A stretch of 57,255 nucleotides of DNA. It comes from Gammaproteobacteria bacterium. Its GTDB lineage: Bacteria; Pseudomonadota; Gammaproteobacteria; Enterobacterales; Alteromonadaceae. The position numbers and the translations under genes were made by a program. The stretch spans positions 1-57,255 of the forward strand of contig JAFLDV010000029.1 in the NCBI GenBank assembly GCA_017302255.1, written 5' to 3'. Below are positions 9,040 through 46,251 of this stretch, one piece after another. Under the pieces are notes generated by a model, which saw nothing but the letters and a program-made list of their open reading frames with translations, did not search any database and was not told where the DNA came from. Numbering within the stretch: position 1 is the stretch's first letter; every line of letters starts with the position of its first letter.

Positions 9040-10484
9040 TGGCTAAGCAAAGTTCTTTAACACCACTTGATCAAACGAAGATAAAGTTCTTTGGCATAGG
9101 AGCTTTGCTGCTGGCTGCATGGGCTTGGACCTTTTGGTCAACGCTGCTTTCGATGGAAGTTGTATGGCGCGGTTCTGAAACCTACATGCATTGCTATTTC
9201 ATACCGCTAATCAGTCTTTGGTTAATTTGGCCGCTGCGCCACGCAATTAACCCCCAATCATTTGGCAGTCTATGGGGATTATTACTTTTTATCCCCTCTT
9301 TTATGCTTTGGCTGGTTGGATTTGCGGCAGACGTAAATTTAATAGCTCATTTTGGCGCTATGCTGTGTTTAGTCAGTTTGCTGTGGTGCTGGCTTGGCGA
9401 TTCTAATTTTAGAGTACTACGTTTTCCGCTGATATACCTGTTATTTGCAGTCCCCTTCGGAGAAGAAGCAAACGCCCCATTACAATTTATTACGGCAGAA
9501 ATGGCGGTATGGCTACTGCAAATAACCGGTATTCCGGTGCTGCACGAAGGGTTGTACATCACGACGCCTGTCGCATCCTTTGAAGTCGCGGAGGCTTGTT
9601 CTGGTGTAAGATTTATGATTGTCGCCCTCGCACTTGCCTTTTTATTTAGCCATATGCACTTTCAGGGCTGGAAAAAGCGCGCATTGTTCATTGGTTCGCT
9701 GGTAATTTTATCGATAATCGCCAATAGTTTCCGCGCGTTTTTCCTGATATTCATCGGTGAAAAAAGCGGCATGACTTACGGTTTTGGTGCTGATCATTAT
9801 TATTATGGCTGGGCGTTTTTCGCGATTGTTATTTTTCTCTCTTTTCATATTGGTGCAAAATTCGGGGATAAAAATGAAGAGATTCTGCATTTAGCTGAAC
9901 AAACAAATCGAGTGCGTGTTATCCCTGTTGCTATTTCAGTCATGCTATTAGTCACAATCAATAGCGCGCTATTTACTGTTTGGCAGCCGATAACGCCTCC
10001 CGAGCAACCAGCCGAGCTCCCTGCTGCGAGCAACTGGCAAAAAATTGAAACAAATAGACTTCACCCGAGCTATCCACACAGTTTGGCTAGTAGCACTTTT
10101 ATCGGACCTGAAGGGCTGCAATATTTCACAGCACAGTTTGCACATCGGCAAAGCCGTGGCGAACTAATTAGCTGGAGCAATAAAGTGTTCCAGCAAGAAG
10201 ACTGGTCGGTAAAACAGCAAATGCATATAGAGATTGCAAACATGCCTTGGACTGAGCTGTCCTTGGTTAAGCGGTCTGGCGAACGTTTGCGGCTTTATTA
10301 CAACTATCAGGTAGGTTCAGTCATAACTACCGATGTTCGAACAGTAAAATTATTACAAGGATTGCACTTTATTAGTGCTAAAAATTCGCTGGCCATTTTG
10401 CATCACTTTAATTGCGTTGATGATGAAGAGAATTGCCGGAAATCGGTAGAGAATGCGACCACAGCGTTGATTAGCAAACGCTAA
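9036..10484 (+). CDS. xrtA: Exosortase A fused to a C-terminal EpsI-type domain
   Basis: Integral-membrane transpeptidase-like enzyme predicted to cut and re-attach proteins carrying a C-terminal PEP-CTERM signal. Using the ATG at 9036 (overlapping the previous TGA) it is 482 residues; an ATG 6 bp upstream is equally possible. The N-terminal 300 residues form about eight membrane helices and carry the catalytic triad: Cys188 in VAEACSGVRF, Arg233 in NSFRAFFLIF and His254 in GADHYYYGW. After a final helix near 295 comes a soluble periplasmic domain of about 160 residues (from LPAASNWQKI onward) resembling EpsI/DUF3485. This fusion is common for the XrtA subtype. Together with the PEP-CTERM gene and PrsK/PrsR it defines the whole locus. 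Confidence 0.93.
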   Translation: MMAKQSSLTPLDQTKIKFFGIGALLLAAWAWTFWSTLLSMEVVWRGSETYMHCYFIPLISLWLIWPLRHAINPQSFGSLWGLLLFIPSFMLWLVGFAADVNLIAHFGAMLCLVSLLWCWLGDSNFRVLRFPLIYLLFAVPFGEEANAPLQFITAEMAVWLLQITGIPVLHEGLYITTPVASFEVAEACSGVRFMIVALALAFLFSHMHFQGWKKRALFIGSLVILSIIANSFRAFFLIFIGEKSGMTYGFGADHYYYGWAFFAIVIFLSFHIGAKFGDKNEEILHLAEQTNRVRVIPVAISVMLLVTINSALFTVWQPITPPEQPAELPAASNWQKIETNRLHPSYPHSLASSTFIGPEGLQYFTAQFAHRQSRGELISWSNKVFQQEDWSVKQQMHIEIANMPWTELSLVKRSGERLRLYYNYQVGSVITTDVRTVKLLQGLHFISAKNSLAILHHFNCVDDEENCRKSVENATTALISKR

Positions 10485-30145: not shown

Positions 30146-32893
30146 ATGAAACACCCAAAAATAATAACGCTTTCGCTGCTGCTAACCTTGGCTGCTGGCT
30201 GTTCGAAAAAAACCTCCGACGAACACTTCCAAGACGCACAAAAATTCCTAAATGAAAATAATGTGCAATCTGCAGTGATTGAACTGAAATCGGCAATACA
30301 ACTGAGCCCAGAAAATGGCAAATATCGGCTACTGCTCGCAGAGATAGCGATGTCCATCGGTGATGTCGCTAGCGCTGATAAAGAATATGAAAAAGCGATA
30401 GCCAACGGCATTGACGTCAACGTGTTGGCACCTTCTTATTTGCGTGCGATGTTTATGGCGAGAAAGCATCGAGAATTGCTGAAATTCATTGATGGCAATA
30501 AAGCACTGAACGAAGAAAATCTAGCAATTGCGACTGTTTTTCAACTACTCATTGAATTAGAAAACGAAAATCGTGAGACTGCTAAGCCAATGCTGGACCA
30601 GATTGCCGGTCAGGACAAATTCGCCGATCTTGCAAATTTTGCTCAAGCGATTTTATTAACTGACGCCGGTCAATCCGAAGACGCAGTAAAAAAGCTTAGT
30701 GACATCGGTAAATCAGCTCGCATCCAACCGGAAATATTATTTGCCAAAGGCCGACTGCAACTTGGACAGCGTCAATTTGACCAGGCTCTATTAAGTTTTC
30801 AAGAATTCGACAAGATTATTCCGAACTACTTCCCGGTGCAGTTGTTCCAAGCACAATGCTTAGTCGAAGCACGGAAAATGACTGATGCCGAAGCGATAGT
30901 CAGCAAACTATTGCAACTAACACCTGAACAACCGTTAGTGAACTATCTTAGTGCAGTGCTAACTTTTGAAAAGAAAGACTTCACCGGCGCTAAGGAAAAA
31001 GCGGAAAAAGCCATTGCCAATGGTTTCGATAGCCCGGCAGCACGCATCCTAGCAGGCCTTTCAGCGGTCAACTTAAAGTTAAATGCACAAGCGTTGGCCC
31101 ATTTTGACCGTAGTCGCGATCAAATCAACAAAGTGCCAGAATTGGCAAAGCTATATCAAGCACTATTATTACAGTCTGGCCGTTCCGACGAGTTGAAAAC
31201 GGAACTACTGAGTAAGAACCCAGCAGAAAATGATCCACAGTTAATCGCTGCAACTGCATATCAATTAATGCGCGAAGGCGCCGATGGCGAAGCTAAAAAG
31301 CTCATCAGTAGCTATAGCAAAACCGCAGATAGCAACGCCTCATTGCAGCTTGCAACATTAAAGCTTGGCATTGAAGGCATGCAATCAGAAGGCCTTGCAG
31401 ACCTAGAGCAAGCGCTGGCGCAAAATCCTAAAGCCGATAAAGCCCGTGAGGTCCTCGCGCAAAGTTATCTGCGTACTGGTCAATTTGCTAAAGCGGATGC
31501 TTTGGCTGATTATTGGATCAACAGTACCGAAGAAGAGGAAATCGGCTACAACTTGAAAGCATACTCAGCGCTTTTACAAGGGCAAAACGATATCGCCAAA
31601 GGTTTTATCGAAAAAGCGAGTGCTGCTAATCGTAAGAATCCATTTACCTTGCTATTAAAAGCGGCTTTGGCTGAATCGGCTAAACAATTTGCTGAAGCAG
31701 AACAGTTCTATTTAGAGGCTTTAGCTGCAGATCCAGGTTATCTGCCAGCAATTATGCCGTTTTATCAAATGATGAAACAGCAAAGCAAAGGCAACGAGGC
31801 CGTCTCAGCCCTAGAGAAGATGCAAAAAGCGAATCCAGACGTAAAATCTTTGCGTATTGGCCTTGCTCTAGTATACGGACGTGAGCAGAAACTCCAACAA
31901 GTAGTCGATTTGATTAATGCCGATAAATCAGATGCCCCACCCACTGAATATCGTAAGCTATTAATCGAAGCGCAAAACGGTCTTGGCAATATTACTGAGG
32001 TGGTTAAATTAACCAGCGAATGGTACAACGAAAACCCTGAAAACCTAGAAATTGCCATTGCTCATAGCCGCGCGCTTCTGGCAAATAAAGAACAAGTGCA
32101 AGCATTAGCTGTACTTGATCGCTTGCTGGCGAAACTTCCTGAGAACCAACAACTGCTCAAAGCAAAAATTGCCCTACTGATAGCAAGCAAAAACCCTTTA
32201 GAGGCGCTGGCCACCCTTGAGAAAATCAAAACTGAAGCAAAAGATGCTGCTGAATTCATGCAACTGAAAGCTCAATTGATGATTCAAGCAAATAAAGTTG
32301 CTGAAGCTAAGAGCTACCTTGAAGGTGAATACCGCAAAGCCGCCACTGAACAAACTGCAACGCTGTTGGCGGAAGTTTACCTTAGAAGTAATGCTAAACC
32401 ACTTGCGCTGGCATTACTAAAGAGCCACTACGGACGCAATCCAAACCATGTGATCGCCGCAAGTCTGTATGCCAACATCGTGTTGGAGAGCGACCTTGCA
32501 TTGGCTTCATCAATTTATAAACAGGTGCTTACTGACCAAAGCAATGATTATGTTGCATTAAACAACTACGCATGGATATTGCACAACGCAGGCGATGATC
32601 AACAAGCATTGAAATATGCTAGTAAAGCACTGGTGGTTGTGCCTAATCAACCTGATGCATTAGATACACTTGGCAGTATCAAATTTAAACTAGGTGATAC
32701 CGACGCCGCAATCACTGCGTTTCAAGCATCGCTAAAAGCGCGACCAAACCATCCTGAGGTATTACTAAACCTGGCTGAAGCCTTATTGAAAAAGGGTGAT
32801 AAGGCTGCAGCGCGCGAACAACTTGCGTTGGTAAAAGCTGCTGAAGGCCCGCTAAAGAACCGTTTAGAGAGCCTATCAGCTGAAAGCAAGTAG
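30146..32893 (+). CDS. prsT: PEP-CTERM system TPR-repeat lipoprotein PrsT (copy 1)
   Basis: A 915-residue lipoprotein with lipobox LAAGC (Cys19), followed by a solenoid of tetratricopeptide repeats covering nearly the whole length. Examples are SAVIELKSAIQLSPENGKYRLLLAEIA near the start and LNNYAWILHNAGDDQQALKYASKALVVVPNQPDALDTLG near the end. It is the PrsT family (TIGR02917), a marker of XrtA/PEP-CTERM genomes, thought to work at the periplasmic side of the outer or inner membrane in sorting or polymer assembly; the exact role is not known. A GGAG site lies 5 bases before the ATG. It stands alone on its strand, ahead of the PEP-CTERM gene, and has a paralogue at 35348-38101. Confidence 0.92.
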   Translation: MKHPKIITLSLLLTLAAGCSKKTSDEHFQDAQKFLNENNVQSAVIELKSAIQLSPENGKYRLLLAEIAMSIGDVASADKEYEKAIANGIDVNVLAPSYLRAMFMARKHRELLKFIDGNKALNEENLAIATVFQLLIELENENRETAKPMLDQIAGQDKFADLANFAQAILLTDAGQSEDAVKKLSDIGKSARIQPEILFAKGRLQLGQRQFDQALLSFQEFDKIIPNYFPVQLFQAQCLVEARKMTDAEAIVSKLLQLTPEQPLVNYLSAVLTFEKKDFTGAKEKAEKAIANGFDSPAARILAGLSAVNLKLNAQALAHFDRSRDQINKVPELAKLYQALLLQSGRSDELKTELLSKNPAENDPQLIAATAYQLMREGADGEAKKLISSYSKTADSNASLQLATLKLGIEGMQSEGLADLEQALAQNPKADKAREVLAQSYLRTGQFAKADALADYWINSTEEEEIGYNLKAYSALLQGQNDIAKGFIEKASAANRKNPFTLLLKAALAESAKQFAEAEQFYLEALAADPGYLPAIMPFYQMMKQQSKGNEAVSALEKMQKANPDVKSLRIGLALVYGREQKLQQVVDLINADKSDAPPTEYRKLLIEAQNGLGNITEVVKLTSEWYNENPENLEIAIAHSRALLANKEQVQALAVLDRLLAKLPENQQLLKAKIALLIASKNPLEALATLEKIKTEAKDAAEFMQLKAQLMIQANKVAEAKSYLEGEYRKAATEQTATLLAEVYLRSNAKPLALALLKSHYGRNPNHVIAASLYANIVLESDLALASSIYKQVLTDQSNDYVALNNYAWILHNAGDDQQALKYASKALVVVPNQPDALDTLGSIKFKLGDTDAAITAFQASLKARPNHPEVLLNLAEALLKKGDKAAAREQLALVKAAEGPLKNRLESLSAESK

Positions 32894-33199: not shown

Positions 33200-33238
33200 T
33201 TATATATTTCGATGGAAACAAATTATTTGGAGAATTAC

Positions 33239-34063
33239 ATGAAATCGTTAAAGACTTTAGTTCTAGCCGCATCAGTTTTAGTAGCTGCTCAGGCAAATGC
33301 TAGTTACACAATCACTTACGGCGGTCAAGCCGCTACTGATGGCTCAGGCGTTACGAGTTCATTAGTTGCTCCGTCTAACGTAGTTGGTTTTGGTAGTGGT
33401 TACTTCATCGAAACGTTTGATGCTGCAACTGCAATGAATATCCCAGGCGTTGGTGCAGGTAGTACAGCGTATAATATCTCTGGCGCTAGTACTGGTTGTG
33501 CAGTCAACTCGTTAGGTTCTGGTTCAGGTATCGGTATCGGTACTTCATCTGGTAATGCTTTAGGTGTTCGTAACAATAGCGAATCAGGTACTGCTGCAGC
33601 ACCTGCTGGCAATACTGGTAGCTGCTTCGCTTACACTCCAGGCCCAGGTAAAGTTGTACCTGCATGGATTGAAATTGACTATACATCACTGTTAGCTACG
33701 CTGCCAGGCAACCCAGCTGTAAACTATTTAGGTTTCTACTTAGGTTCAGTTGATACTTACAACAGCCTGCAGTTCTACCGTGGTTCTGAAACTACACCAT
33801 TCTTATCACTGTCTGGCCAACAAATTTTAAATGCTAACGGTGGTACTACTGGTAACCAAATTGCTAACGGTTCAAACGTATATATCAATATCAACTTTAT
33901 TGGTGAATCTTTCACCAAATTCCGCTTCACTACTACAGCAGTTGCGGCTGAGTTTGATAACATCGTTGGCGGTTTAACAAACCGTCCTGTGTCTGCTCCA
34001 GCAACCTTAGCCCTGTTAGGTTTAGGTCTGTTAGGTATGTCACTGCGTCGCAGAAAAGCATAA
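33239..34063 (+). CDS. PEP-CTERM sorting domain-containing secreted protein
   Basis: A 274-residue exported protein and the probable substrate of XrtA. The ATG at 33239 has GGAG six bases upstream; an in-frame ATG 27 bp earlier has no such site. An N-terminal signal peptide (MKSLKTLVLAASVLVAAQANA) is followed by a Gly/Ser/Thr/Asn-rich domain with four cysteines or so and no motif I recognise. The C-terminus has the tripartite sorting signal: short motif SAPAT, hydrophobic helix LALLGLGLLGMSL and basic tail RRRKA. The usual Pro-Glu-Pro is replaced by Pro-Ala-Thr. Codon choice is strongly GGT/GCT/ACT biased compared with neighbours, suggesting high expression. It has a sigma-54 promoter upstream and a strong terminator downstream, so it is monocistronic. 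Confidence 0.9.
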   Translation: MKSLKTLVLAASVLVAAQANASYTITYGGQAATDGSGVTSSLVAPSNVVGFGSGYFIETFDAATAMNIPGVGAGSTAYNISGASTGCAVNSLGSGSGIGIGTSSGNALGVRNNSESGTAAAPAGNTGSCFAYTPGPGKVVPAWIEIDYTSLLATLPGNPAVNYLGFYLGSVDTYNSLQFYRGSETTPFLSLSGQQILNANGGTTGNQIANGSNVYININFIGESFTKFRFTTTAVAAEFDNIVGGLTNRPVSAPATLALLGLGLLGMSLRRRKA

Positions 34064-35347: not shown

Positions 35348-38101
35348 TTAAAGCAATGATTTAATCCGTTGTGCCTTCTTCACTAACACAGGATCTTTAA
35401 CTTCGATACGGCTTAGAATTGCCATAGCTTTATCTTTCTGGTTGTTTGCAATCAGCGCTTCAGCATAATTTAGCGAAACATCCGGATGCTCCGGTCGAAT
35501 TTTTAACGACTGTTCAAAATACGGCAAAGCTTCTTTGATCTGACCTTTAAGTAACAAAGCTCGGCCTTTGGTATCAAGCGCGTCGGGATGATTTGGTTCT
35601 AACTTCAACGCTTTCTCGGCATATTTTAGTGCGTCATCCGGTTTACCCTGTTCGGTAAACAAATAGGCTAAGTTATTTAACGCCATAAAGTTTTCAGGAT
35701 CTTCATCAATCAAAGTACTGAAGGTATTTGACGCTTTGCTCGGATCAACCGAAAGTAACAAGTTCGCATACATAGACTGCAGCATAGGATTTTTTGGTTC
35801 AGTGCTAAAATGATTTTCAATAAACCGTACAGCTTCTTCCGGAGAATCGTTTTTTGCTATCAGATCTGCCAAAAACATTGCCGTCTGCGCAGACTTCGTC
35901 TGTTGATAACTTGCCATTAAAGCTGCTTTGCCTTCAACATACTTACCCTGAGCAATCAGTAACTTTCCTTTAAGCAGCAATACATCAGATTTAGCCTGCA
36001 CGTCTTTCGGCAGAAGATTCAGGCTAGTCATTGCACCTGCATAATCTCTGGTTTCAGCTTGCAATACCGTTTGCAAATTCTTCAATTCAGGTACATTTGG
36101 ATGTAATTTGAGTTGCTGCTGAGTCAGTTTTAATGCATCGACAAACTGACGATTCTCCATCAGTTGCGTAATATAAGAAAATTGTGCAGCAAGGTTCTGC
36201 GGCTGGCTTTGACTCCAGGCCTGTGCGGTTTCTAGAGCATTTTTAACTTGTTTCTTCTGGGCATAACTATTAATCAACACTTGCCAGAATAGATTTGGCT
36301 TTTGCTCAGCCGCCGTATTTACACTTGTGAGCATTGCAATCACATCGTCAAACTTCTTCTGTTCGAAGAGGACCCGTGCTTGCAGCGAAAGCAATGAAAT
36401 ATTCTCTGGATCTCGAGTTAATGCAGCGCTAATACGATCTCTTGCTTGGCCTGCAAGTGGTTCAGTTTTGTTGAATTCATAATCCATTTCCAGCGCCGAA
36501 TAGTAACCAGGATCTATTGCTAGCACTTGTTGAATATATTTATTTATGGAATCAAGATCACCATTTGCTGCGGCGACCCGCGCCTGCATAATCATCGCCA
36601 GCAAGTTTTTTGGATCTTTGGCAAGAATTAGCTCAGCGGCTTTGCTAACCCCTGCTCTATCTCCTTTGGTAAGCGCAACATAAGCAGTAATGGTATGTCC
36701 CAAAATCTCAGTTTTTGCTGCTTTTAGCAATGAATCGGCAATAGCCTGTGCTTTATCTGCCTCATTGTTATTAAGGTAGGACATTGCGAGTGCCAATTGG
36801 TGCTTATCGACACTTGGATCTAACTGTACCGCTTGCTCAAGCAGATTTGTCCCTTCTGCAACTTGACCTAACCCCATCTTTAACATGCTCAAGGTCGCAA
36901 GATTTTCGACGTTTTTGTCGACGTTTTTTTCTAAATGCTGGACTACCTGAGCTGCTTGCTCTGAAGCTCCTCGTTTCAATAGCTCAAAAGATGCTGAAGT
37001 CAAAATAGCGAGATCTTCATTGCCGGCTGGTGACGCCGTCAACAGATTGGTGCCGTCAGCAATATTGCCTTGTTGCAGCTCCAAAAATGCATAAGTTTTT
37101 TCTACCGAAGGATATTGTTTAAGCTGATCTTTAATCATCCGTAAATGCGCTAACGCTTGCGCATTTAGATTCTGCTGCAGCGCGGCAAGTGCCGCAAGGA
37201 TCCGAACATTAGGCACTGCAAAGCCGTTATTTACCGCTTTTTCCGCAAGCTCTTTTGCCTTCACGAAATCTTTATCTTCATAGGCGATAACGGCAGTTAG
37301 GTAGTTTGCCAAGGGTTGCTCAGGATAAAGCGCCAACAATCCAGAGAGAATGGGTTCAGCGTCCGCAGCCTGATTGTTACGGACATAAGTTTCAGCCAGC
37401 ATCAGCTTGGCAAAATTCGCTGAAGTCGCAATTGCGACGTATCCTTTCAGCGTTGTAATAGCCTCTTTAAATAAACCATCTGTGAGCTGTGCCTTTGCCA
37501 GCAACAATTGGCTATCCCAATAAATTGGGCTGTCGGCATTAATCTGTTGTAAATGCGAAATCGCCTTAGCATTTTGCTGATTCAGCAATGACAATACAGC
37601 GTTGGCGGCGTTTTTAGTCGCATCGTTTTTAGTTTCTTGCGAAAACGCAGCAAACTCAGTCGCCAAATTGTTCAACTCACCATTGTCAAAGCGAGTCAAA
37701 AGCGAATAAAACTTAATAAATTCATTACTGTTACTTGCATCGGCAATGTCGACGTTTAAGGAAACTGAGGGTGATACACCGGACAAGTAGGCCGCACGAG
37801 CCAAATCAACTGCTATGTCAGTAAGCTTTGCACCATTTTTCAATGCACGAGTAAGTTCTTTATCTGCGGCAACTCCTTCGCCAATCTTCAGATAAATTCG
37901 CCCCAACAGTACTCGAGCTTGTGCATTGTCAGGTGCTTGCTGAATTGCCGACTTTAGTTCAATCACTGCAGCAGCATCATCTTTATGCTGGATATATTGT
38001 TGAGCAGTTTCAATATGTTGCTCTGGGCTTTTATCACCACAGCCAATTAAAGCACTAGAAATTGCGATCGCTAAAGCAGAAAACAATAAAACTTTTTTCA
38101 T
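35348..38101 (-). CDS. prsT: PEP-CTERM system TPR-repeat lipoprotein PrsT (copy 2)
   Basis: A 917-residue lipoprotein, starting at the ATG at 38101 (MKKVLLFSALAIAI) because GGAAGA precedes it; an ATG 12 bp earlier has no site. The lipobox is ALIGC (Cys21) and the rest is TPR solenoid. It is clearly paralogous to copy 1: both have AAVIELKSAIQ or the equivalent near residue 40, a PEQPL-NYL-AV segment near 250, LNAQALAH soon after, and the same C-terminal TPR block (LNNLAYLFTEQGKPDDALKYAEKALKLEPNHPDALDTKG here). Overall divergence is substantial, so this is an old duplication. The two copies face each other across the PEP-CTERM gene and a glycosyltransferase gene. Confidence 0.9.
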   Translation of the reverse strand: MKKVLLFSALAIAISSALIGCGDKSPEQHIETAQQYIQHKDDAAAVIELKSAIQQAPDNAQARVLLGRIYLKIGEGVAADKELTRALKNGAKLTDIAVDLARAAYLSGVSPSVSLNVDIADASNSNEFIKFYSLLTRFDNGELNNLATEFAAFSQETKNDATKNAANAVLSLLNQQNAKAISHLQQINADSPIYWDSQLLLAKAQLTDGLFKEAITTLKGYVAIATSANFAKLMLAETYVRNNQAADAEPILSGLLALYPEQPLANYLTAVIAYEDKDFVKAKELAEKAVNNGFAVPNVRILAALAALQQNLNAQALAHLRMIKDQLKQYPSVEKTYAFLELQQGNIADGTNLLTASPAGNEDLAILTSASFELLKRGASEQAAQVVQHLEKNVDKNVENLATLSMLKMGLGQVAEGTNLLEQAVQLDPSVDKHQLALAMSYLNNNEADKAQAIADSLLKAAKTEILGHTITAYVALTKGDRAGVSKAAELILAKDPKNLLAMIMQARVAAANGDLDSINKYIQQVLAIDPGYYSALEMDYEFNKTEPLAGQARDRISAALTRDPENISLLSLQARVLFEQKKFDDVIAMLTSVNTAAEQKPNLFWQVLINSYAQKKQVKNALETAQAWSQSQPQNLAAQFSYITQLMENRQFVDALKLTQQQLKLHPNVPELKNLQTVLQAETRDYAGAMTSLNLLPKDVQAKSDVLLLKGKLLIAQGKYVEGKAALMASYQQTKSAQTAMFLADLIAKNDSPEEAVRFIENHFSTEPKNPMLQSMYANLLLSVDPSKASNTFSTLIDEDPENFMALNNLAYLFTEQGKPDDALKYAEKALKLEPNHPDALDTKGRALLLKGQIKEALPYFEQSLKIRPEHPDVSLNYAEALIANNQKDKAMAILSRIEVKDPVLVKKAQRIKSLL

Positions 38102-38339
38102 ATGTTCTTCCATGTTTATGACAAAGTGACACCGAAAACATGAGTGTCTTTGCTAACGGCTCAATAGTGACAAAATAAGATTTTTTGTCCGGAAAACAGT
38201 TAATTACGCCTTAATGCTCAGCTAGGCAATGTCCCAAAACGGATTGCTTAAATCTACACAGCCCCGTAATAGCTTCATATTCGAAATCACTATAATTCAA
38301 CGGCCTAGATATGCAAAGCGTCAAAGCAATAGTAATTAT

Positions 38340-39989
38340 TTAATGACCAGTGTATCGGCCTTTTGCCAAAATTTGATTCGGATCTGTCGCACTTTTTATC
38401 CGATTAACCCAATCCCAAAAGACCGTATCTTTATTCAACAATTGTTGTTGCTGAGCTATATTCAAACGATATGGAACTAAGCCAATTTGCAATCCTGCTG
38501 AAACCAATTCATCTAGGCAAGCATTCGCGTCGACGACAGCTTTGGGATCGGCAAGATTGAACACTATCGGAATTGTACTGTCGACCGTATCATGGCGCAA
38601 ACTGGTAAAGGTCACCATAGGCTCGATACCATACTTGGGGCAGGTTCCTCGGACATGAGTCACTAAACGTCGCAGCTGCAATGGATTGAACTGCACCAAT
38701 GGGGCATACCACAATAATCCGCAACCATCGACAGCAGGGTCCATTAATCTGGTTGCGTCAGCACTAACTCTTGGATTACGCCAATAAGCCAGCGGTAACG
38801 CGACTTGATTGGGAATACCCTTCATAATAGCGACGCCGTTGTCTAAGGATTGCAACATTTTACGAATTTCAGCAAACCAAGTACCAGGTAAACAACTAAA
38901 GGCAAATTTAGCGAACTTAATGAGCCAACCTTCAGAATAAATCCGACGCTTTATTTTACCGGCTGAGATTTGATTAACTACTGCGCGTCCCGCGTTTACC
39001 ACCGCCGGCTCGCCATATAGAGTACCGACAACAGTCCACGCTGGGACATCATGCTTTTTGGCGAGCATCTGTACTTGTTGCTCACTCATAGCCTGATGGC
39101 TCGCTGCGCCGTTGGGATTTTTAATCATCATCGACAGCACACGACGTTTGTCCATGAGATTAACTGAGCCGACAATACCTTCCAAACGCAGCAGAATTTG
39201 TTGAACACATTCGGCAGCAACTTCCAAATCATCATCATGAGCAAACTGTAAGTAAAACGAATCAAAGGCAGCAGGATTTCTTTTTAGTCGTATAGTCATT
39301 TCCGTGGCAACGGCTAACCCCGACTGCGTGAATAACCCATCAAGGTATGGCCCGACTTTCCATTTAAAGGTTTTATCTACTGCATCTGTTCCAGAATTAT
39401 CTAACTCTGAAATGCTTGATTGATAACGCAGCCCTTGCGGCAGAAAACCCTTAATAGCGTTAACCGCAGCGAAATGGTCGGTATACGGAGTGATACCGTA
39501 GCCCCGCTCGAGCGCATTCGCCAATATGCTGCAACTTGGCCCAGCTCCAGTCACTGGAACCATGAATGGCAATTTTTGCGCATCAATCGCATCTCGTAGC
39601 ATCTGTTGAGTTACGCCGGGTTCAACTGTAACTAAACCACTAGCAATATCGTCAAAACGGATAGCTTGCAGTAAAGACAAATCGAGAATTACCGCAAAGG
39701 GATCAGGAGCTAAAGCACTTCCATATCCCCAGTTATGCCCTGTGCTTACGGGATAAACTGTAAAGCGCTCTGCAGTCTGTGCGAGTTCGTTGGCTAAGAC
39801 TAAAATTGCCGGAATATCACGTAAATATTCGGGGGCTCCGGAAGCATCCAGGGCGCCACTGACCTCAACCACAATGACTTGGTCACGAGCATATCCCTCG
39901 CAACTCGCGGTGAATCTCGAAGATGCATCAGCCAACTTTACCTTGGTATTCACTGACAGCAACTCTGAGAGCCTTTGCAACAATTGCAT
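38340..39989 (-). CDS. FAD-binding oxidoreductase, 4-cresol dehydrogenase/vanillyl-alcohol oxidase family
   Basis: Flavoenzyme of about 549 residues from the ATG at 39989 (MQLLQRLSELL), preceded by AAAGGA; an upstream in-frame ATG at 40037 would overlap the neighbouring gene and lacks a site. The PCMH-type FAD domain has VSTGHNWGYGSA, VTVEPGVTQQML, ANALERGYGITPYTDHF and FKWKVGPYLDGLFTQ. The C-terminal cap has LAYWRNPR, GLLWYAPL, the Tyr-Arg pair in VPYRLN and the closing TDPNQILAKGRYTG. These align well by eye with the large subunit of p-cresol methylhydroxylase. Enzymes of this group oxidise para-alkylphenols. It lies 16 bp after the acyl amino acid synthase gene, which suggests it modifies that enzyme's product. 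No cytochrome partner is seen nearby. Confidence 0.82.
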   Translation of the reverse strand: MQLLQRLSELLSVNTKVKLADASSRFTASCEGYARDQVIVVEVSGALDASGAPEYLRDIPAILVLANELAQTAERFTVYPVSTGHNWGYGSALAPDPFAVILDLSLLQAIRFDDIASGLVTVEPGVTQQMLRDAIDAQKLPFMVPVTGAGPSCSILANALERGYGITPYTDHFAAVNAIKGFLPQGLRYQSSISELDNSGTDAVDKTFKWKVGPYLDGLFTQSGLAVATEMTIRLKRNPAAFDSFYLQFAHDDDLEVAAECVQQILLRLEGIVGSVNLMDKRRVLSMMIKNPNGAASHQAMSEQQVQMLAKKHDVPAWTVVGTLYGEPAVVNAGRAVVNQISAGKIKRRIYSEGWLIKFAKFAFSCLPGTWFAEIRKMLQSLDNGVAIMKGIPNQVALPLAYWRNPRVSADATRLMDPAVDGCGLLWYAPLVQFNPLQLRRLVTHVRGTCPKYGIEPMVTFTSLRHDTVDSTIPIVFNLADPKAVVDANACLDELVSAGLQIGLVPYRLNIAQQQQLLNKDTVFWDWVNRIKSATDPNQILAKGRYTGH

Positions 39990-40005
39990 TAGAACTAATC
40001 CTTTA

Positions 40006-40908
40006 TCATTTCGGTTGTAATCGTTCGTTAAAACCAATATCCATTAGGCTTTCAACCATTTCAGACAGCGACTTTACGGTGACATCTGGTGTTGTTTTAT
40101 CGGACGCCCCAAGGTCTTTTTCAATGGACTTTAATAATTTTTTGTAGCCAGGAGATAAATTGTCGAACAACATTTCTTTATTAATGTAATAAGCTGCCCG
40201 CTTGCCGTGATACTCGACAGGCTCACCAAGTTGTTTAAAACAAATACCTACGAAGGTCATACTTCTGGCAAGTCGCGGTTCCATCATGACAAACGCATGT
40301 TTCTTGTGCGTGCGAAACGCCGTAGATGCAGCCGCTAGATACAAACAGATGGCGATATAAGGAAAACAACGAAGCTCTTTTGTGGAATAATCATCGATAT
40401 TGATAGCACCTGTCGCCGCGCCATTGAACTTATCGATTTGGCGTCGACGGAAGTCTTCAAGCACAGCCAGACGTGAAATCTCGCAGATGTCTTGTCTTGG
40501 AAATAGGCTAGGCGCAAATTCGGTATCTTGAATGGCATGACTGCAATATTTTTCGATAGGGAGCAATTCTTCGGCACAACTAGATGTGATAAGCCGCACC
40601 GTTCCAGCCATCCGTTCGGACGCAAGATGGCGCACAAAACAATGCACAGAGTGTGCATCAAAATCGTCCATCTCGATTTTATTGTCTTTTTCCGGTTCGA
40701 ATTTAAGTTCGGCGCAATACACTTCGTGACGCAAGCGATAAACTTCCTGCCGCAACGCTTCGGTATTAGCGAGCTGCGGCCGCAGGTACTGAGAGAAATG
40801 TTTGGATATCGTGCTCGCATCTGAACTCGCAAGGTGCGAAATTGCCCTATTCACCAAACCGCCAACCACCGGAATGCTTTGTAAGGTCTTTAAGTGTTTC
40901 ATGCTCAT
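40006..40908 (-). CDS. PEP-CTERM/exosortase-associated N-acyl amino acid synthase (LuxI-like acyltransferase)
   Basis: About 300 residues from the ATG at 40908 (MSMKHLKTLQS), chosen because TGGAAT lies 5 bases upstream; an in-frame ATG 84 bp earlier is less likely. It has the pattern of autoinducer-synthase-like N-acyltransferases: RQEVYRLRHEVYCAELKFE, then MDDFDAHSVHCFV, AGTVRLI and ICEISRLAV, which corresponds to the W-ELSRFAV region of LuxI. The C-terminal part (EPVEYHGKRAAYYI) completes the fold. This is the TIGR03694 family, members of which have been shown to make long-chain N-acyl amino acids and are linked to exosortase genomes. The amino acid used is not predictable. It is in a leftward cassette between the patatin and flavoenzyme genes. 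Confidence 0.85.
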   Translation of the reverse strand: MSMKHLKTLQSIPVVGGLVNRAISHLASSDASTISKHFSQYLRPQLANTEALRQEVYRLRHEVYCAELKFEPEKDNKIEMDDFDAHSVHCFVRHLASERMAGTVRLITSSCAEELLPIEKYCSHAIQDTEFAPSLFPRQDICEISRLAVLEDFRRRQIDKFNGAATGAINIDDYSTKELRCFPYIAICLYLAAASTAFRTHKKHAFVMMEPRLARSMTFVGICFKQLGEPVEYHGKRAAYYINKEMLFDNLSPGYKKLLKSIEKDLGASDKTTPDVTVKSLSEMVESLMDIGFNERLQPK

Positions 40909-41022
40909 GATATTCCATTCTGCAAATTCGATGTGCTCAGAATTATCTGACAACATCCACAAAAGACGGCCATTTTCTAAAATGACTCTCATGCCCCAAT
41001 AACTACTTGTATCTGGGGTTCT

Positions 41023-41916
41023 CTAAGAAGCGTGCCCCCCTAACCCTTGCTTAAATGCGGCTTCGGTAAGGATAAGTTTTAACTTCAATGGGATCACTTC
41101 TTTTGTTGTGTGATACCCAAGCTCCAATAGATTTAACTTTTTATCATACGGCAAATTAAAATCGACAGATGAGACATTCCCGGTATTGATAAGCACGGTG
41201 TTATGCCAATATTGAGCATGTACGTACTCTCGAGACATAGCGTTCATAAATGTCTGAATTAACATCAGCACATATGAAACTAACGGAAACATTCGACGAC
41301 GAAGCACTGGCTTATCATCACCGTCGCTCTTGAGGCGAAAGCACACGACAGGAACGCCTCGGGTTGACCAATCTTGATGCAACGCGTCTTCAGCTAAAAT
41401 AACACCGTCAGCCATTACGTGATTATCAAAGGTTTTAAACGAAAACATCAGAGGGATGGACATCGAGAATCTGACTGCTTGTGATACTTTCATCTCGGGA
41501 GTTCGACTGCGATTAAAAATCACCGGCCCACCACCATTAATATCTGTTGCAAGCACATGAAGATCGCATTGGAGGTCTTTAAAGCATGCGCCTTGCAATT
41601 GTTCGTCTATCCACTGCTCGAATTTGTCACCAGAAGATAAACCGCCAGTCCGGATTAAATTGATTAGCGAAAAGCCGCGGAATTGGCGGAAGTCGGTTTC
41701 TAGTGCTAACTGCTTTAATTCCTCATGGTTTTTACCAACCGCGAGCATCGCAGCGACTATGCTGCCACCAGAAACACCAACCAACGAATTAAATGAAAGT
41801 TTTAATTCTGCAAGCGCCATCAGAATACCGACATAACAAGGTAGACGCGTGCCGCCCCCAGAAAAAATGGGCACTATTTCCACAGTTTCTGTGTCAATAT
41901 CGCGCTGCATCGTCAA
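41023..41916 (-). CDS. Patatin-like phospholipase/acyl hydrolase
   Basis: A 297-residue patatin-family Ser-Asp hydrolase. The oxyanion loop is FSGGGTRLPCYVG (about 18-30), the nucleophile is Ser49 in GVSGGS, and the catalytic Asp is in HVMADGVILAED, a DGV variant of the usual DGG/DGA. VLATDINGGGPVIFN and AVRFSMSIPLMF are further family landmarks. It has no signal peptide and is probably cytoplasmic or membrane-peripheral. The frame starts at TTG 41916 with AGGA about 8 bases before; ATG at 41910 is possible but poorly spaced. It is the first gene of a three-gene leftward cassette with the acyl amino acid synthase and flavoenzyme, so it may release or recycle acyl chains; this is inference. 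Confidence 0.85.
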   Translation of the reverse strand: MTMQRDIDTETVEIVPIFSGGGTRLPCYVGILMALAELKLSFNSLVGVSGGSIVAAMLAVGKNHEELKQLALETDFRQFRGFSLINLIRTGGLSSGDKFEQWIDEQLQGACFKDLQCDLHVLATDINGGGPVIFNRSRTPEMKVSQAVRFSMSIPLMFSFKTFDNHVMADGVILAEDALHQDWSTRGVPVVCFRLKSDGDDKPVLRRRMFPLVSYVLMLIQTFMNAMSREYVHAQYWHNTVLINTGNVSSVDFNLPYDKKLNLLELGYHTTKEVIPLKLKLILTEAAFKQGLGGHAS

Positions 41917-42048: not shown

Positions 42049-42801
42049 GTGAAAAAAATCATGTTGTTATTCTTGTGTTGTTTTTCTTTAAGCACAAGTT
42101 GCCATGAGCTTAGTAAACGGATCTCTAGCGCAAAACCTTCGATCGTCGCCATCGCGATTTTGAACCCTACAGCTTCGCCAAGACTCAGTCTGATTGGCAC
42201 TGGATTTGCTGTCGGCGATGGACATCAAATTGCTACCAATGCGCATGTGATTGCTAAACTTCTGGATGAGAGTAAAAACGAACGTTATGTGGTGTTGTCG
42301 GGCCAAGGTGCAAATCCAAAAATCCACTTTGTTTTAAAGCAAAAAGTAGACGCTAAATATGATTTAGCTGTGTTACAAATCAATGATCGTATTGAGCCTT
42401 TAACGCTAGCAGCTGATGAGTATCAACCAGAGGGCAGCGAGCTTTTGTTTACTGGCTACCCTATCACCGAAGTTCTCGGACTATATCCTGCAAGCAATAA
42501 AGCAATGATTAGTGCAGTAACGCCAGTGGTAATTCCCGCTAATCATGCCTCAGATTTGAGTCCGCAGGTATTGCGACAATTACAGCAACCCTTTTTGATC
42601 TATCAACTCGACGGCACAGCATATCCAGGTAACAGTGGTAGTCCGGTTTATTCGGTCGTCGATGGAACAGTAGTGGCTGTCATCAATATGGTTTATGTGA
42701 AGCAGACAAAAGAATCGGTTCTAAGTAACCCCAGTGGGATCAGCTACGCCATCCCATCTCGTCATCTTCGTGCTTTATTAGCACGACCATTCGAAGGGTA
42801 G
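42049..42801 (+). CDS. Secreted trypsin-like serine protease (S1C-type)
   Basis: A 250-residue protease with a signal peptide (MKKIMLLFLCCFSLSTSC; a lipobox is not convincing). The catalytic triad is visible: His66 in ATNAHVI, Asp105 in AKYDLAVLQ and Ser196 in GNSGSPV. TGFAVGDGHQIATNAHV is the typical N-terminal barrel of HtrA-like enzymes. There is no PDZ domain, so it is a bare protease domain. It starts with GTG at 42049, with GAAGGA upstream. The stop is 4 bp before the prsK start, so the two should be cotranscribed and probably coupled. A role in sensing or in processing envelope proteins, possibly PEP-CTERM proteins, is inferred from position only. Confidence 0.85.
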   Translation: MKKIMLLFLCCFSLSTSCHELSKRISSAKPSIVAIAILNPTASPRLSLIGTGFAVGDGHQIATNAHVIAKLLDESKNERYVVLSGQGANPKIHFVLKQKVDAKYDLAVLQINDRIEPLTLAADEYQPEGSELLFTGYPITEVLGLYPASNKAMISAVTPVVIPANHASDLSPQVLRQLQQPFLIYQLDGTAYPGNSGSPVYSVVDGTVVAVINMVYVKQTKESVLSNPSGISYAIPSRHLRALLARPFEG

Positions 42802-42805
42802 TTTA

Positions 42806-44860
42806 GTGATTTCTGGAATAGATTTTGGCAGCATTGGATTTTATTTATCGGCTCTCGGCTACTTAGCATTCTGGGGTTTACTACTTACCGTACGAACTAG
42901 CAGTGTGCAAAAGCATATGCTTAGCATACTCATCATATTCAATGTGTTATGGTCACTGGTTCATGCCGATCCAAGCAATATCCCGATTATCAGTGCAAGC
43001 TCATTTGCAGTTGAGACTATCCAAAAAATCATCATGCTGCTGTTTTTGTTTGCGGCTTATGGCGATAGCACCTTAACAATAAGGCAGTTTTGCACTAATC
43101 CAAAAGTCGGTATTACCTTAAGTACGGTTGTGGTCTGGCTCGCAGTTTCGTTATTCACGAACTTGGACGTGCAAGTGCGGGTGATCGGAACTTTGTTGTT
43201 AGTGATCGTACTGCTTGCAATGATCGAGGGGATTTATCGAAAGTCAGCACAACAACGCTGGGCTTTTAAGCCCTTGATAGTAGCCTTCGGTGTTTGCTTA
43301 CTGATTGACTTTTATTTGCTAGCAGAAGCAGCATTATTAGGTTCTATTCACCACCTCACATGGCAAGCTCGTGGTTATGTGCATCTGGCACTACTGCCAT
43401 TTTTAGTTATTGCCACCAAGCGAATCAAATCTTGGAGTATCAATGTCTTTGTCTCAAGGGACATTGTGCTACAAAGTTCGTTAGTGATGGCCGCTGGGTT
43501 CTATTTATGTACCCTTTCGCTTGCCGGTTACTACGTTTCATACATCGGTGGCAGCTGGACCTCCGTGATGCAAATCATGTTGGTAACCCTCGGTATCAGC
43601 ATATTTAGCGTGTTTTTCTTTTCTGAAGCAATCCGCCGTAAGAGCAGAGTTTTCATCGAAAAGCACTTCTTCGCAAATACCTTTGATTACCGCAAAAAAT
43701 GGGTAGAGCTAACCGCAGAGTTAAAAACCATTGAAATTGCCGACCAGAATGCGCCCGAGGTATGTTTACGAGCTTGGTGCAAAGCCATCGGCTATCAAGA
43801 TGGCGCTCTAATCAAGACGCAAGGCGAGTTTTTTAAAGTACTAGCGCACACTCAGTCATTTAACTACGACAATCAAATCAATGAAGTGCTGAAGTCATAT
43901 CAAACCTATTTTGCCAATAAAACCTGGTTAATTGATTTTGCAAACAGCAAAGATAAAGACGTCAATTTGCTGTTGCCAAAAATTAATCCGGAAAAACTAG
44001 GGTTTCAATTACTTATTCCGATCCTAAGCAAAGGCCAGCATTGGGGCTTTTGTTTACTTAAACCGAAAGCTAATGAGCAACTTGCATTAAATTGGGAACT
44101 CCGTGACTACCTAATTGCAGTGACAGAGCAAATTTCTAGCTATCTGTTTATGAGTGAAGCGAGTAAAACACTTTCAGAAAATGCGCAATTTATGGCTTTC
44201 AGCCGGATGTCCGCATTTGTTGTCCACGACCTAAAAAACGTGAAAGCGCAGATCGACATGTTGCTGAAGAACGCACAGAAACATCGACATAATCCAGAAT
44301 TTATTGATGATGCCTTTGCCACAGTTGCCGCGATGCAAACTCGTCTTGGCAATATGCTCGGTCAGCTTACCAATAAACAAAGCAATCAAGAGCAAACCAA
44401 ACGAATTAGGGTCGGCGAGTTACTGACGCAAATCATCCAAGAGCGCTGCCAGTCGCTTCTACCTTTGCCAGGGCTGCAGATCCTGCATGATGGGCAATTA
44501 CACATCGACGTTGAACGTTTTGGTAATGTGGTCTTTCACTTAATTGATAATGCGCAACAGGCGACAGCAGATGACGGATCTGTGCAAGTTATCGTAGATC
44601 AGATTGAAAACTTGATGATTATCAAAATAGTCGACTCCGGCTGCGGTATGTCGGCTGAATTCATTAGGGATCGTTTATTTAAACCCTTTGATACGACAAA
44701 GGGTAACGCCGGAATGGGTATCGGCGCTTTTGACGCGCAAACATTTGTCCAATCGATGCACGGGCACTTAAGTGTCGACAGTACCGAGGGCTTAGGGACT
44801 ACCTTTACCATTCAGCTTCCGATAAACTATAACCAGACTAATACACGGAATGTAGTATGA
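42806..44860 (+). CDS. prsK: PEP-CTERM system sensor histidine kinase PrsK
   Basis: Membrane sensor kinase of 684 residues. Residues 1-275 contain eight to ten hydrophobic helices. A GAF-like region (about 295-450) follows. The kinase core has the phospho-accepting His474 in FVVHDLKN, an N-box in FHLIDNAQQATAD (about 577-589), G1 VDSGCGM and G2 GNAGMGIGAF (about 633-642). This domain order is that of PrsK (TIGR02916). It starts with GTG at 42806, four bases after the protease stop, and overlaps prsR by 4 bp (ATGA). The signal sensed is not known. The partner PrsR should activate sigma-54 promoters such as the one at 33184. Confidence 0.93.
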   Translation: MISGIDFGSIGFYLSALGYLAFWGLLLTVRTSSVQKHMLSILIIFNVLWSLVHADPSNIPIISASSFAVETIQKIIMLLFLFAAYGDSTLTIRQFCTNPKVGITLSTVVVWLAVSLFTNLDVQVRVIGTLLLVIVLLAMIEGIYRKSAQQRWAFKPLIVAFGVCLLIDFYLLAEAALLGSIHHLTWQARGYVHLALLPFLVIATKRIKSWSINVFVSRDIVLQSSLVMAAGFYLCTLSLAGYYVSYIGGSWTSVMQIMLVTLGISIFSVFFFSEAIRRKSRVFIEKHFFANTFDYRKKWVELTAELKTIEIADQNAPEVCLRAWCKAIGYQDGALIKTQGEFFKVLAHTQSFNYDNQINEVLKSYQTYFANKTWLIDFANSKDKDVNLLLPKINPEKLGFQLLIPILSKGQHWGFCLLKPKANEQLALNWELRDYLIAVTEQISSYLFMSEASKTLSENAQFMAFSRMSAFVVHDLKNVKAQIDMLLKNAQKHRHNPEFIDDAFATVAAMQTRLGNMLGQLTNKQSNQEQTKRIRVGELLTQIIQERCQSLLPLPGLQILHDGQLHIDVERFGNVVFHLIDNAQQATADDGSVQVIVDQIENLMIIKIVDSGCGMSAEFIRDRLFKPFDTTKGNAGMGIGAFDAQTFVQSMHGHLSVDSTEGLGTTFTIQLPINYNQTNTRNVV

Positions 44861-46251
44861 AAACACTGTTAGCAATTGACGACGACGTCGGGATCCAAAA
44901 ACAGCTCAAATGGAGTTTGACTGATTACGAATTGGTGGTAGCAGACGACCGCAGTAGCGCTATGCAACAAATGCGTCGCTACGAGCCTATGGTCGTAACA
45001 CTCGATCTTGGGCTGCCGCCGGACCCTACAAACGCTTCTGAAGGCCTTGCCTGCTTAGCTGAAATTCTGCAACACAAACCAGACTGCAAAGTAATAGTTA
45101 TTACTGGCAACACTGATACGGAACACGCATTAAAGGCAATCGGACTTGGTGCTTACGATTATTATCAAAAGCCAATTGATGTTGATGTACTGAATGTGAT
45201 CGTCGAAAGAGCGTTCAAGCTTGCTGAACTGGAAGCGGAAAATCGTGCACTAAAGCAATCAAACGTGAAACAACAAGACATTATCGGCAATAGCGAGGCG
45301 ATCCTCAAGGCGTGCCGTATGGTCGAGAAAATTGCACCAACTGAAATCACAACCCTTTTACTTGGGGAAAGCGGCACTGGTAAAGAAGTTTTCGCTCGCG
45401 CCATTCACAAGCAAAGTCCAAGATCAACCAAACCTTTTGTGGCTATCAACTGCGCTTCTATCCCAGATAATTTGCTCGAAAGTGAATTATTTGGCTACGA
45501 AAAAGGCGCTTTTACCGGTGCCAACAAAACCACGCTCGGTAAAGTCGAAACCGCAAATGGCGGAACTTTGATGCTCGACGAAATTGGCGATATGCCGCTT
45601 TCGCTGCAGGCCAAAATGCTGCGTTTTTTACAAGAGCGTGTCATAGAACGGATTGGCGGTCGAAGTGAGATTGAAGTAGATGTGAGGGTTATTTGCGCTA
45701 CTCATCGCAATCTTGCTGAAATGGTCGCTGATGGTAGTTTTCGCGAAGATTTATTCTATCGGGTGAGTGAGATTACCTTAAATATTCCACCATTACGTAA
45801 TCGCGGCCAAGATATTATCTTGTTGGCAAAAGCGTTGCTTCATAAGTTTAATGGCGAGTTTAATACAAGCATTCAAGGTTTTACTGAAGACGCTATTGCC
45901 GCGATGCTTGGACATCGTTGGCCCGGTAACATTCGCGAGATGCAAAATAAGTTAAAATCTGCGGTTATCATGGCCGATAACAAGTTTATCACCGCTGAAG
46001 ACCTAAATCTGTCTACCAGTAATAGCCCGATAGCCTTGTTGACCCTACGTAAAGTTCGAGAACAAGCAGAAACACAAGCTATCCGACAAGCTTACAACCT
46101 TTCAAACGGCAACTTATCTAAAACTTCTGACTTATTAGGTGTCACCCGCCCTACTTTGTATTCGCTAATCGATAAATACAAAATGGTGGACCTACGGCCC
46201 ACTGATGCAGATGCATTAGTAACGACACAAGAGTCGACTTCTGACGAATAA
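44857..46251 (+). CDS. prsR: PEP-CTERM system sigma-54 response regulator PrsR
   Basis: NtrC-type enhancer-binding protein of 464 residues. The receiver domain has acidic pocket IDDD (7-10), phospho-acceptor Asp50 in VVTLDLGLPP and Lys in YYQKP. The AAA+ domain has Walker A GESGTGKE (170-177), the sigma-54 contacting GAFTGA (217-222), Walker B GGTLMLDEIGD (235-245) and the arginine-finger region FREDLFYRV. A Fis-type helix-turn-helix lies near the C-terminus (GNLSKTSDLLGVTRPTLYSLI). With all three domains intact it should be active. It is encoded with PrsK and followed by a strong terminator. The most likely target in this window is the PEP-CTERM gene promoter. Confidence 0.95.
   Translation: MKTLLAIDDDVGIQKQLKWSLTDYELVVADDRSSAMQQMRRYEPMVVTLDLGLPPDPTNASEGLACLAEILQHKPDCKVIVITGNTDTEHALKAIGLGAYDYYQKPIDVDVLNVIVERAFKLAELEAENRALKQSNVKQQDIIGNSEAILKACRMVEKIAPTEITTLLLGESGTGKEVFARAIHKQSPRSTKPFVAINCASIPDNLLESELFGYEKGAFTGANKTTLGKVETANGGTLMLDEIGDMPLSLQAKMLRFLQERVIERIGGRSEIEVDVRVICATHRNLAEMVADGSFREDLFYRVSEITLNIPPLRNRGQDIILLAKALLHKFNGEFNTSIQGFTEDAIAAMLGHRWPGNIREMQNKLKSAVIMADNKFITAEDLNLSTSNSPIALLTLRKVREQAETQAIRQAYNLSNGNLSKTSDLLGVTRPTLYSLIDKYKMVDLRPTDADALVTTQESTSDE

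Follow-up and report, generated by a model that had tools for sequence, protein, structure and literature searches.

Craig, Cherry and Brady are said to have described, in 2011, N-acyl amino acid synthases (NAS) linked to PEP-CTERM systems. Among the systems closest to the locus considered here are the clusters that make N-acyl dehydrotyrosines (thalassotalic acids, kyonggic acids and stieleriacines), which combine nasY with genes for a ThiF-family protein and a nitroreductase (PMC12479983). The ThiF-type proteins of OxzAB, TyzABC and TrzAS cyclise N-acyl aromatic amino acids to oxazolones (PMC10404671, PMC12856293), and the known N-acyl dehydrotyrosines and tyrazolones are products of, or have been ascribed to, ThiF plus nitroreductase-family enzymes (PMC12479983, PMC10404671, PMC12856293). 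The 4-phenol oxidoreductases, such as p-cresol methylhydroxylase (PCMH), vanillyl alcohol oxidase (VAO) and eugenol oxidase (EUGO), transfer a hydride from the C-alpha of the para-substituent to flavin adenine dinucleotide (FAD), giving a quinone methide that undergoes rearrangement or water addition (PMC7617285). A phenolate-binding Tyr-Tyr-Arg set, the P-cluster, is common to all of them (Y91, Y471 and R472 in EUGO; PMC11148156).

In the window, by which we mean the whole 57,255-nucleotide stretch analysed here (contig JAFLDV010000029.1, from a member of the Alteromonadaceae), a NAS gene lies between genes for a patatin-like phospholipase and a 4-phenol-oxidoreductase-like flavoenzyme. Like the PEP-CTERM-linked enzymes of Craig, Cherry and Brady, this NAS is part of an exosortase locus. 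As in the N-acyl dehydrotyrosine clusters, the NAS hallmark gene has an adjacent tailoring oxidoreductase, and the predicted product class overlaps (2,3-dehydro-N-acyl-tyrosine); the window differs in its VAO-type flavoenzyme and XrtA context, and neither ThiF (E<=1e-40) nor a nitroreductase-superfamily FDO (E<=1e-12, with a query that misses diverged FDOs) was found in its genome, the flavoenzyme occupying the slot. The locus shares with OxzAB, TyzABC and TrzAS an N-acyltransferase and the modification of an acylated aromatic amino acid, and its sister loci have ThiF at or near NAS, but it is without a cyclase and its oxidising enzyme comes from an unrelated family. The ThiF/nitroreductase layout seen in some of these sister loci matches that of the oxazolone and N-acyl dehydrotyrosine clusters (PMC12479983, PMC10404671, PMC12856293). 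The window locus appears to represent a branch of a known lipid pathway that has not been described. A first-pass annotation of this DNA had known of no described pathway with these parts. Our search of the accessible literature found no link between VAO/PCMH-type enzymes and NAS (a mention in subscription papers is possible), but the chemistry itself has precedents, N-acyl dehydrotyrosines and tyrazolones being known via ThiF and nitroreductase-family enzymes.

Two alternative partners of the synthase

In a sample of 394 genomes of the order (flavoenzyme matches taken at E<=1e-10), the flavoenzyme is found in 22 and a TIGR03694 NAS in 57, the latter being present in 18 of the 22 flavoenzyme genomes versus 39 of the 372 others (Fisher p 2.7e-13, kinship ignored). 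The two genes are separated by at most 10 kb in 15 of the 22, at most 3 kb in 12 and at most 500 bp in 8. Among 80 named loci, the best 80 of 502 confirmed and therefore the most similar ones rather than a random draw, 68 contain a NAS, within 3 kb in 65 and within 300 bp in 45. A phylum-level sample of 398 genomes (flavoenzyme cut-off E<=1e-30) yielded 13 matching genomes, with a NAS within 10 kb in nine (G000, G003, G023, G165, G225, G235, G485, G548 and G582), on another contig in G050, and with no NAS over the cut-off in G718, G689 and G497. The flavoenzyme-NAS pairing is conserved and the gene arrangement occurs far above chance: the conserved neighbourhood in relatives on which the first-pass annotation had staked its idea is there in 15 of 22 genomes (within 10 kb) and 68 of 80 named loci. 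The four order-level flavoenzyme genomes without TIGR03694 are G161, which has a different NAS (see below), and G271, G281 and G372, whose flavoenzyme matches are weak (E 5e-33 to 4e-31); G271, the sole one of these three placed on a tree, groups with catabolic-type enzymes.

The gene order is variable, including patatin-NAS-flavoenzyme, ligase-decarboxylase-NAS-flavoenzyme (Colwellia), flavoenzyme-protease-other-NAS (Alteromonas), NAS-two other genes-flavoenzyme and, in three genomes from a different family within the class (f35), flavoenzyme-NAS. That the linkage persists despite this reshuffling argues for a joint function rather than the inheritance of one block. In the Colwellia group, an XrtA-associated acyl-CoA ligase (TIGR03098-like) and a pyridoxal phosphate (PLP)-dependent decarboxylase (TIGR03099-like) are encoded directly upstream of NAS-flavoenzyme (L109, L111, L114, L115, L122, L123, L127, L130, L134, L135, L138, L158 and L160); TIGR03099 had no match over its cut-off in the window genome.

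Across 45 mapped loci, the flavoenzyme is found in 22 and a ThiF-family protein (identified by Pfam on one member) in 16, and no locus has both; the remaining seven comprise L035 and L039, which are NAS loci of flavoenzyme genomes, and L054, L056, L057, L059 and L092. With the ThiF cut-off set genome-wide at E<=1e-40, the flavoenzyme occurs in 18 of the 57 NAS genomes, ThiF in 40, both in two and neither in one (Fisher p 4.3e-11, kinship ignored). One of the two with both is G111; the other, G235, has two NAS genes with one partner each. The genome with neither is G403, in which a GNAT gene (PF13480; L176:7809-8990) adjoins NAS and may be a third type of gene to fill this slot. The distance between ThiF and NAS in the 40 genomes is at most 5 kb in 37 and at most 300 bp in 22, with the genes on different contigs in three, and ThiF occurs in none of the 80 named flavoenzyme loci. 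Together these observations identify the flavoenzyme as one of two alternative NAS partners, nearly exclusive with ThiF.

The alternation extends into the window's genus, which the nearest named rows of the NAS and flavoenzyme trees suggest is probably close to Rheinheimera/Arsukibacterium; there the same patatin-NAS-protease-PrsK/PrsR locus holds the flavoenzyme in G000, a distant flavoenzyme clade in G003, G005 and G013, and ThiF in G011, G017 and G019. On a NAS tree of 71 rows, 66 of them labelled, the partner label switches at least 12 times, and the starred branches alone require eight changes per label; 24 of the 66 inner branches are open, some rows are on long branches, and the 30 of the 80 named loci that were included all have the flavoenzyme, which inflates its share. 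Some ThiF loci also encode the second enzyme of the known clusters: ThiF-nitroreductase fusion proteins are found in L174 and L175, and a nitroreductase-type gene lies near ThiF in L051 and L178. An FDO of the nitroreductase type was recovered in 8 of the 57 NAS genomes, all with ThiF (G111 having the flavoenzyme as well), by a query that passes over diverged forms such as the weak nitroreductase match in L179.

The flavoenzyme is additionally paired with FeeM-type NAS proteins. On the Methylorubrum populi plasmid pMPPM04 (L183:6005-12648), an operon codes for a FeeM-type NAS (PF21926, 133.7 bits), a methyltransferase, the flavoenzyme, a Trp-halogenase-like enzyme and an amidase. A comparable operon is found in G161 (L086:7237-15145; halogenase-like proteins 43% and amidases 30% identical), with its own FeeM-type NAS (116.4 bits) one gene upstream of the flavoenzyme, and in a planctomycete metagenome-assembled genome (L170) a FeeM-type NAS (146.7 bits) is directly upstream. 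These are pairings independent of TIGR03694. The L183 and L086 operons resemble the window in placing a NAS close to the same flavoenzyme subfamily, one gene apart, but differ in their FeeM-type NAS and the accompanying methyltransferase, halogenase-like enzyme and amidase, and no exosortase was present among the 13 annotated neighbours of the L183 NAS operon. Both look like a halogenated N-acyl amino acid pathway.

The patatin goes with NAS, not with the flavoenzyme: it is present in 10 of the 16 ThiF loci, 5 of the 22 flavoenzyme loci and 43 of the 80 named ones, so that the tie between patatin and flavoenzyme implied by the first-pass annotation was not borne out. A three-gene cassette as the unit was rejected because ThiF loci also carry patatin; patatin and NAS form a wider unit. 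A trypsin-like protease gene recurs beside patatin-NAS with either partner (27 of 45 loci). The window patatin contains the motifs SGGGTR (oxyanion), GVSGG (nucleophile) and ADG (DG dyad); G.SGG and GGG.R are kept in all 15 homologues, and the strict DG pattern in 10.

Family and active site of the flavoenzyme

Whether the query was the protein alone or a profile built from 23 sequences (A1), sequence searches ranked 4-phenol oxidoreductases of the VAO/PCMH family first, and the best sequence matches in the Protein Data Bank (PDB) are VAO/PCMH-type enzymes. In an AlphaFold2 model (predicted local distance difference test, pLDDT, 84.8; predicted template modelling score, pTM, 0.86), the first 47 PDB fold matches are all of the VAO, EUGO, PCMH, EPO, VAD or pinoresinol hydroxylase type, with TM scores of 0.80 to PCMH (1dii) and 0.82 to EUGO (9h8q). 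The model thus assigns the flavoenzyme the VAO/PCMH fold of the 4-phenol oxidoreductases.

Alignment to PCMH places Tyr89, Tyr507 and Arg508 at the phenolate-binding positions, and this triad, the phenol-binding set that the first-pass annotation had wanted to see in an alignment, is kept in 22 of 22 relatives from the genome sets (leaving out the weak matches G271, G281 and G372), in all 80 named relatives and in the Methylorubrum relative. Six catabolic-type, plasmid-borne relatives carry the three positions in 5, 5 and 6 of 6 cases; being common to catabolic relatives, the triad indicates a phenol substrate and not which phenol. The site of the covalent His is Leu425 (Leu in 22 of 22 relatives; Leu in 78 and Ile in 2 of the 80 named), and that of the oxidase Asp is Gly148. 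Thr462 and Pro474 occupy the columns of PCMH Glu427 and Asp440, which we take to be active-site acids linked to hydroxylation. The segment between Arg404 and Gly422 spans 14-21 residues in relatives versus 1-2 in the six plasmid-borne ones. Thus, in fold and triad the enzyme resembles PCMH, EUGO, VAO and nsVAO (9fge), but Leu425, Gly148, the insert before CGLLW, the linkage to NAS and the lack of a cytochrome c gene among the nine window genes scanned around the cassette set it apart. The earlier label "PCMH-like" is accordingly apt for fold and triad but not for the Glu427/Asp440 columns or the gene context, no cytochrome c gene lying alongside.

The near-invariant Tyr402, in a YWR motif, is a candidate, unproven, for linking the FAD. 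Two of the six plasmid controls have their Tyr one column earlier, where the window enzyme has Ala401, and the neighbouring insertion blurs the alignment here. A reading with non-covalent FAD, which came from an ungapped extension, was dropped once Tyr402 was found beside the relevant column. A missing covalent FAD would not in any case exclude membership of the 4-phenol oxidoreductases, since nsVAO has none (PMC7617285).

In a tree of 61 flavoenzyme rows ("quick" branch support, as for NAS), one branch (approximate likelihood ratio test, SH-aLRT, 100) parts nine relatives from all NAS- or FeeM-linked rows. Six of these nine are the plasmid-borne catabolic-type enzymes; the genomes of the other three have no NAS over the cut-off. 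A cytochrome c gene lies within about 5 kb of the flavoenzyme relative in four of the six plasmid controls; five are beside cytochrome c or aldehyde dehydrogenase genes, L189 having neither, and an annotated NAS is found in none of the six, for which annotation is incomplete.

Predicted pathway and its alternatives

We consider it probable that, in place of the cyclisation by ThiF, the flavoenzyme acts on the NAS product and oxidises its tyrosine side chain, giving an acyclic dehydro- or beta-hydroxy-N-acyl-tyrosine. NAS would acylate an aromatic amino acid, most likely tyrosine, with a fatty-acyl chain. The flavoenzyme, probably cytoplasmic given that no signal peptide is obvious by eye, would bind the phenolate of the N-acyl product through Tyr89, Tyr507 and Arg508 and take a hydride from the benzylic (C-beta) carbon to give a p-quinone methide. 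The favoured exit would be tautomerisation to N-acyl-2,3-dehydrotyrosine, since lipids of the N-acyl dehydrotyrosine kind are known and the presumed hydroxylation acids of PCMH are absent; water addition would instead give beta-hydroxy-N-acyl-tyrosine, and a third exit, decarboxylation, an enamide. A possible role of the patatin is the hydrolysis or recycling of acyl groups, and the lineage appears to have swapped a cyclised head group of the ThiF oxazolone type for an oxidised open one. The analysis establishes what the genes encode, their conserved linkage, the near-exclusion with ThiF, the triad and the fold, and from these we infer the substrate, the order of steps, the product, the flavin attachment and the role of the patatin. 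As judged from sequence comparisons, the core of the first-pass annotation, a p-alkylphenol oxidase that may act on a neighbouring N-acyl tyrosine, survives both the neighbourhood and the triad analyses.

Several observations weigh against this pathway. A TIGR03694 match alone does not fix tyrosine as the NAS substrate, and with PCMH Glu427 and Asp440 replaced, the putative quinone methide may take more than one of these exits. Twelve of the 80 named loci, seven of them from Shewanella, are without a TIGR03694-type NAS (L170 has the FeeM-type NAS, the L148 contig measures 3.3 kb, and L120 stops shortly after the flavoenzyme); the flavoenzyme is distant from NAS in three NAS genomes (on other contigs in G050 and G111, 586 kb away in G114); and 10 rows without a NAS nearby fall on the NAS-linked side of the flavoenzyme tree. 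In ThiF genomes, four additional copies of NAS (L054, L056, L057 and L059) have neither partner nearby. The recognisable FDO in only 8 of 57 NAS genomes means that most ThiF pathways may differ from Oxz/Tyz, and ThiF, which would be expected to stay if the flavoenzyme merely replaced the nitroreductase-type desaturase, does not.

In four Shewanella loci (L162:8898-9824, L163:8781-9779, L164:8817-9779 and L166:8799-9833), in which no NAS was found, an orphan gene of 300 aa is directly upstream of the flavoenzyme. A suspicion that it encodes an unusual GNAT gained no support: Pfam, NCBIfam, the NAS profile, hhalign and PDB sequences yielded no usable match, and its low-confidence AlphaFold2 model (pLDDT 39.7) is uninformative.

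The flavoenzyme could also act first, on free tyrosine or tyramine, with NAS then acylating the oxidised amine. Adjacency and co-occurrence say nothing about the order of steps, and the flavoenzyme gene precedes NAS in the three f35 genomes; acylation is, however, the first step in the Oxz/Tyz/Trz pathways (PMC10404671, PMC12856293), and a benzylic quinone methide formed on an unacylated amino acid would probably be prone to side reactions. We regard this order as unlikely. Only a small chance attaches, likewise, to an oxidative decarboxylation in which the quinone methide would lose CO2 to give the N-acyl enamide or, after rearrangement, an enol ester. In its favour, L183, L086 and L170 have FeeM-type NAS genes adjacent to, or one gene away from, members of this flavoenzyme subfamily, and the eDNA (environmental DNA) fee cluster, attributed to Brady in 2002, is said to make enol esters. 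Against it, many Colwellia loci have a PLP decarboxylase upstream of NAS, with none over the cut-off in the window genome, and a literature search limited to accessible papers turned up none on the fee enzymes.

The idea of an ordinary catabolic 4-alkylphenol oxidase or dehydrogenase, encoded in XrtA loci by chance, is disfavoured and very improbable. Although the flavoenzyme shares its fold and triad with lignin-phenol enzymes and the Shewanella homologues sit apart from NAS, the linkage spans families and phyla with changing gene order, the catabolic-type relatives are on a separate side of the tree, the cytochrome c genes near four of six plasmid controls have no counterpart among the nine scanned window genes, and near-exclusion with ThiF is unexpected for a chance neighbour. 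Least plausible of all, and scarcely credible, is the view that the phenol modified belongs to some other product of the XrtA system, an exopolysaccharide or a PEP-CTERM protein. The richness of the locus in such genes might suggest this, but it fits poorly with the Methylorubrum NAS operon and its exosortase-free annotated neighbours (no exosortase search was made in L086 and L170).

The XrtA locus and wider significance

The patatin, NAS and flavoenzyme genes are confirmed as real and placed as listed in Table 1, three leftward genes in close order. The flavoenzyme could start at TTG 40037 or ATG 39989; the latter is preceded by AAAGGA, resembling a Shine-Dalgarno sequence, and leaves the gap of 16 bp after the NAS stop that the first-pass annotation had given. 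The motifs it had named (ICEISRLAV, VSTGHNWGYGSA and VPYRLN) are all found in the window proteins, and NAS is matched by PF13444 and PF21926 as well. The assignment to an XrtA locus is upheld by TIGR profile matches to XrtA, PrsK/PrsR and PrsT; XrtA is 28 kb from the three-gene group, and the surroundings are rich in XrtA, exopolysaccharide and PEP-CTERM genes. The same locus has a second PrsT-type gene, the two flanking a gene for a PEP-CTERM protein.

Table 1. Features of the window, with the profile match or alignment behind each assignment
Feature	Position	Strand	Evidence or remark
Exosortase XrtA	8973-10484	+	TIGR03109, 284.8 bits (cut-off 208)
Second PrsT-type TPR lipoprotein	30146-32893		above TIGR02917 cut-off
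PEP-CTERM protein	33212-34063		
PrsT TPR lipoprotein	35348-38113	-	TIGR02917, 451 bits
4-phenol-oxidoreductase-like flavoenzyme, NAS-linked subfamily	38340-39989	-	PF01565, 35.4 bits (cut-off 26.4); 549 aa from ATG
Tyr507-Arg508 codons	38466-38471	-	alignment to PCMH Tyr473-Arg474, phenolate binding
Inserted segment, residues 405-421, before CGLLW motif	38727-38777	-	17 residues in window enzyme
Tyr402 codon, YWR motif	38784-38786	-	candidate flavin-linking residue; near-invariant (21/22 and 80/80)
Tyr89 codon	39723-39725	-	alignment to PCMH Tyr95, phenolate binding
NAS (exosort_acyl)	40006-40992	-	TIGR03694, 238.2 bits (cut-off 111.95)
Patatin-like phospholipase	41023-41916 (open reading frame; first ATG 41910)	-	PF01734, 88.5 bits (cut-off 27.7)
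Trypsin-like protease	42049-42801	+	PF13365
PrsK histidine kinase and PrsR response regulator, XrtA/PEP-CTERM system	42806-46251	+	TIGR02916 and TIGR02915, above cut-off

The role of NAS in exosortase bacteria is an open question, and a dedicated tailoring enzyme interchangeable with the ThiF cyclase offers a concrete, testable product prediction along with species pairs within a genus for comparison. Returning to the oxidation of the NAS product by the flavoenzyme, we see about equal weight for and against a broader proposal, namely that XrtA-type systems have an interchangeable head-group module beside one NAS, in which the product would be either cyclised by ThiF or, repeatedly and even within a genus, oxidised at the phenol by an undescribed lipid-acting subfamily of 4-phenol oxidoreductases, which would also operate in FeeM-type, halogenase-containing operons outside XrtA systems. 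If the predicted reaction is correct, it would widen the substrates of the 4-phenol oxidoreductases beyond lignin phenols to lipidated tyrosine, and the activity would be useful for making dehydro-amino-acid lipids.

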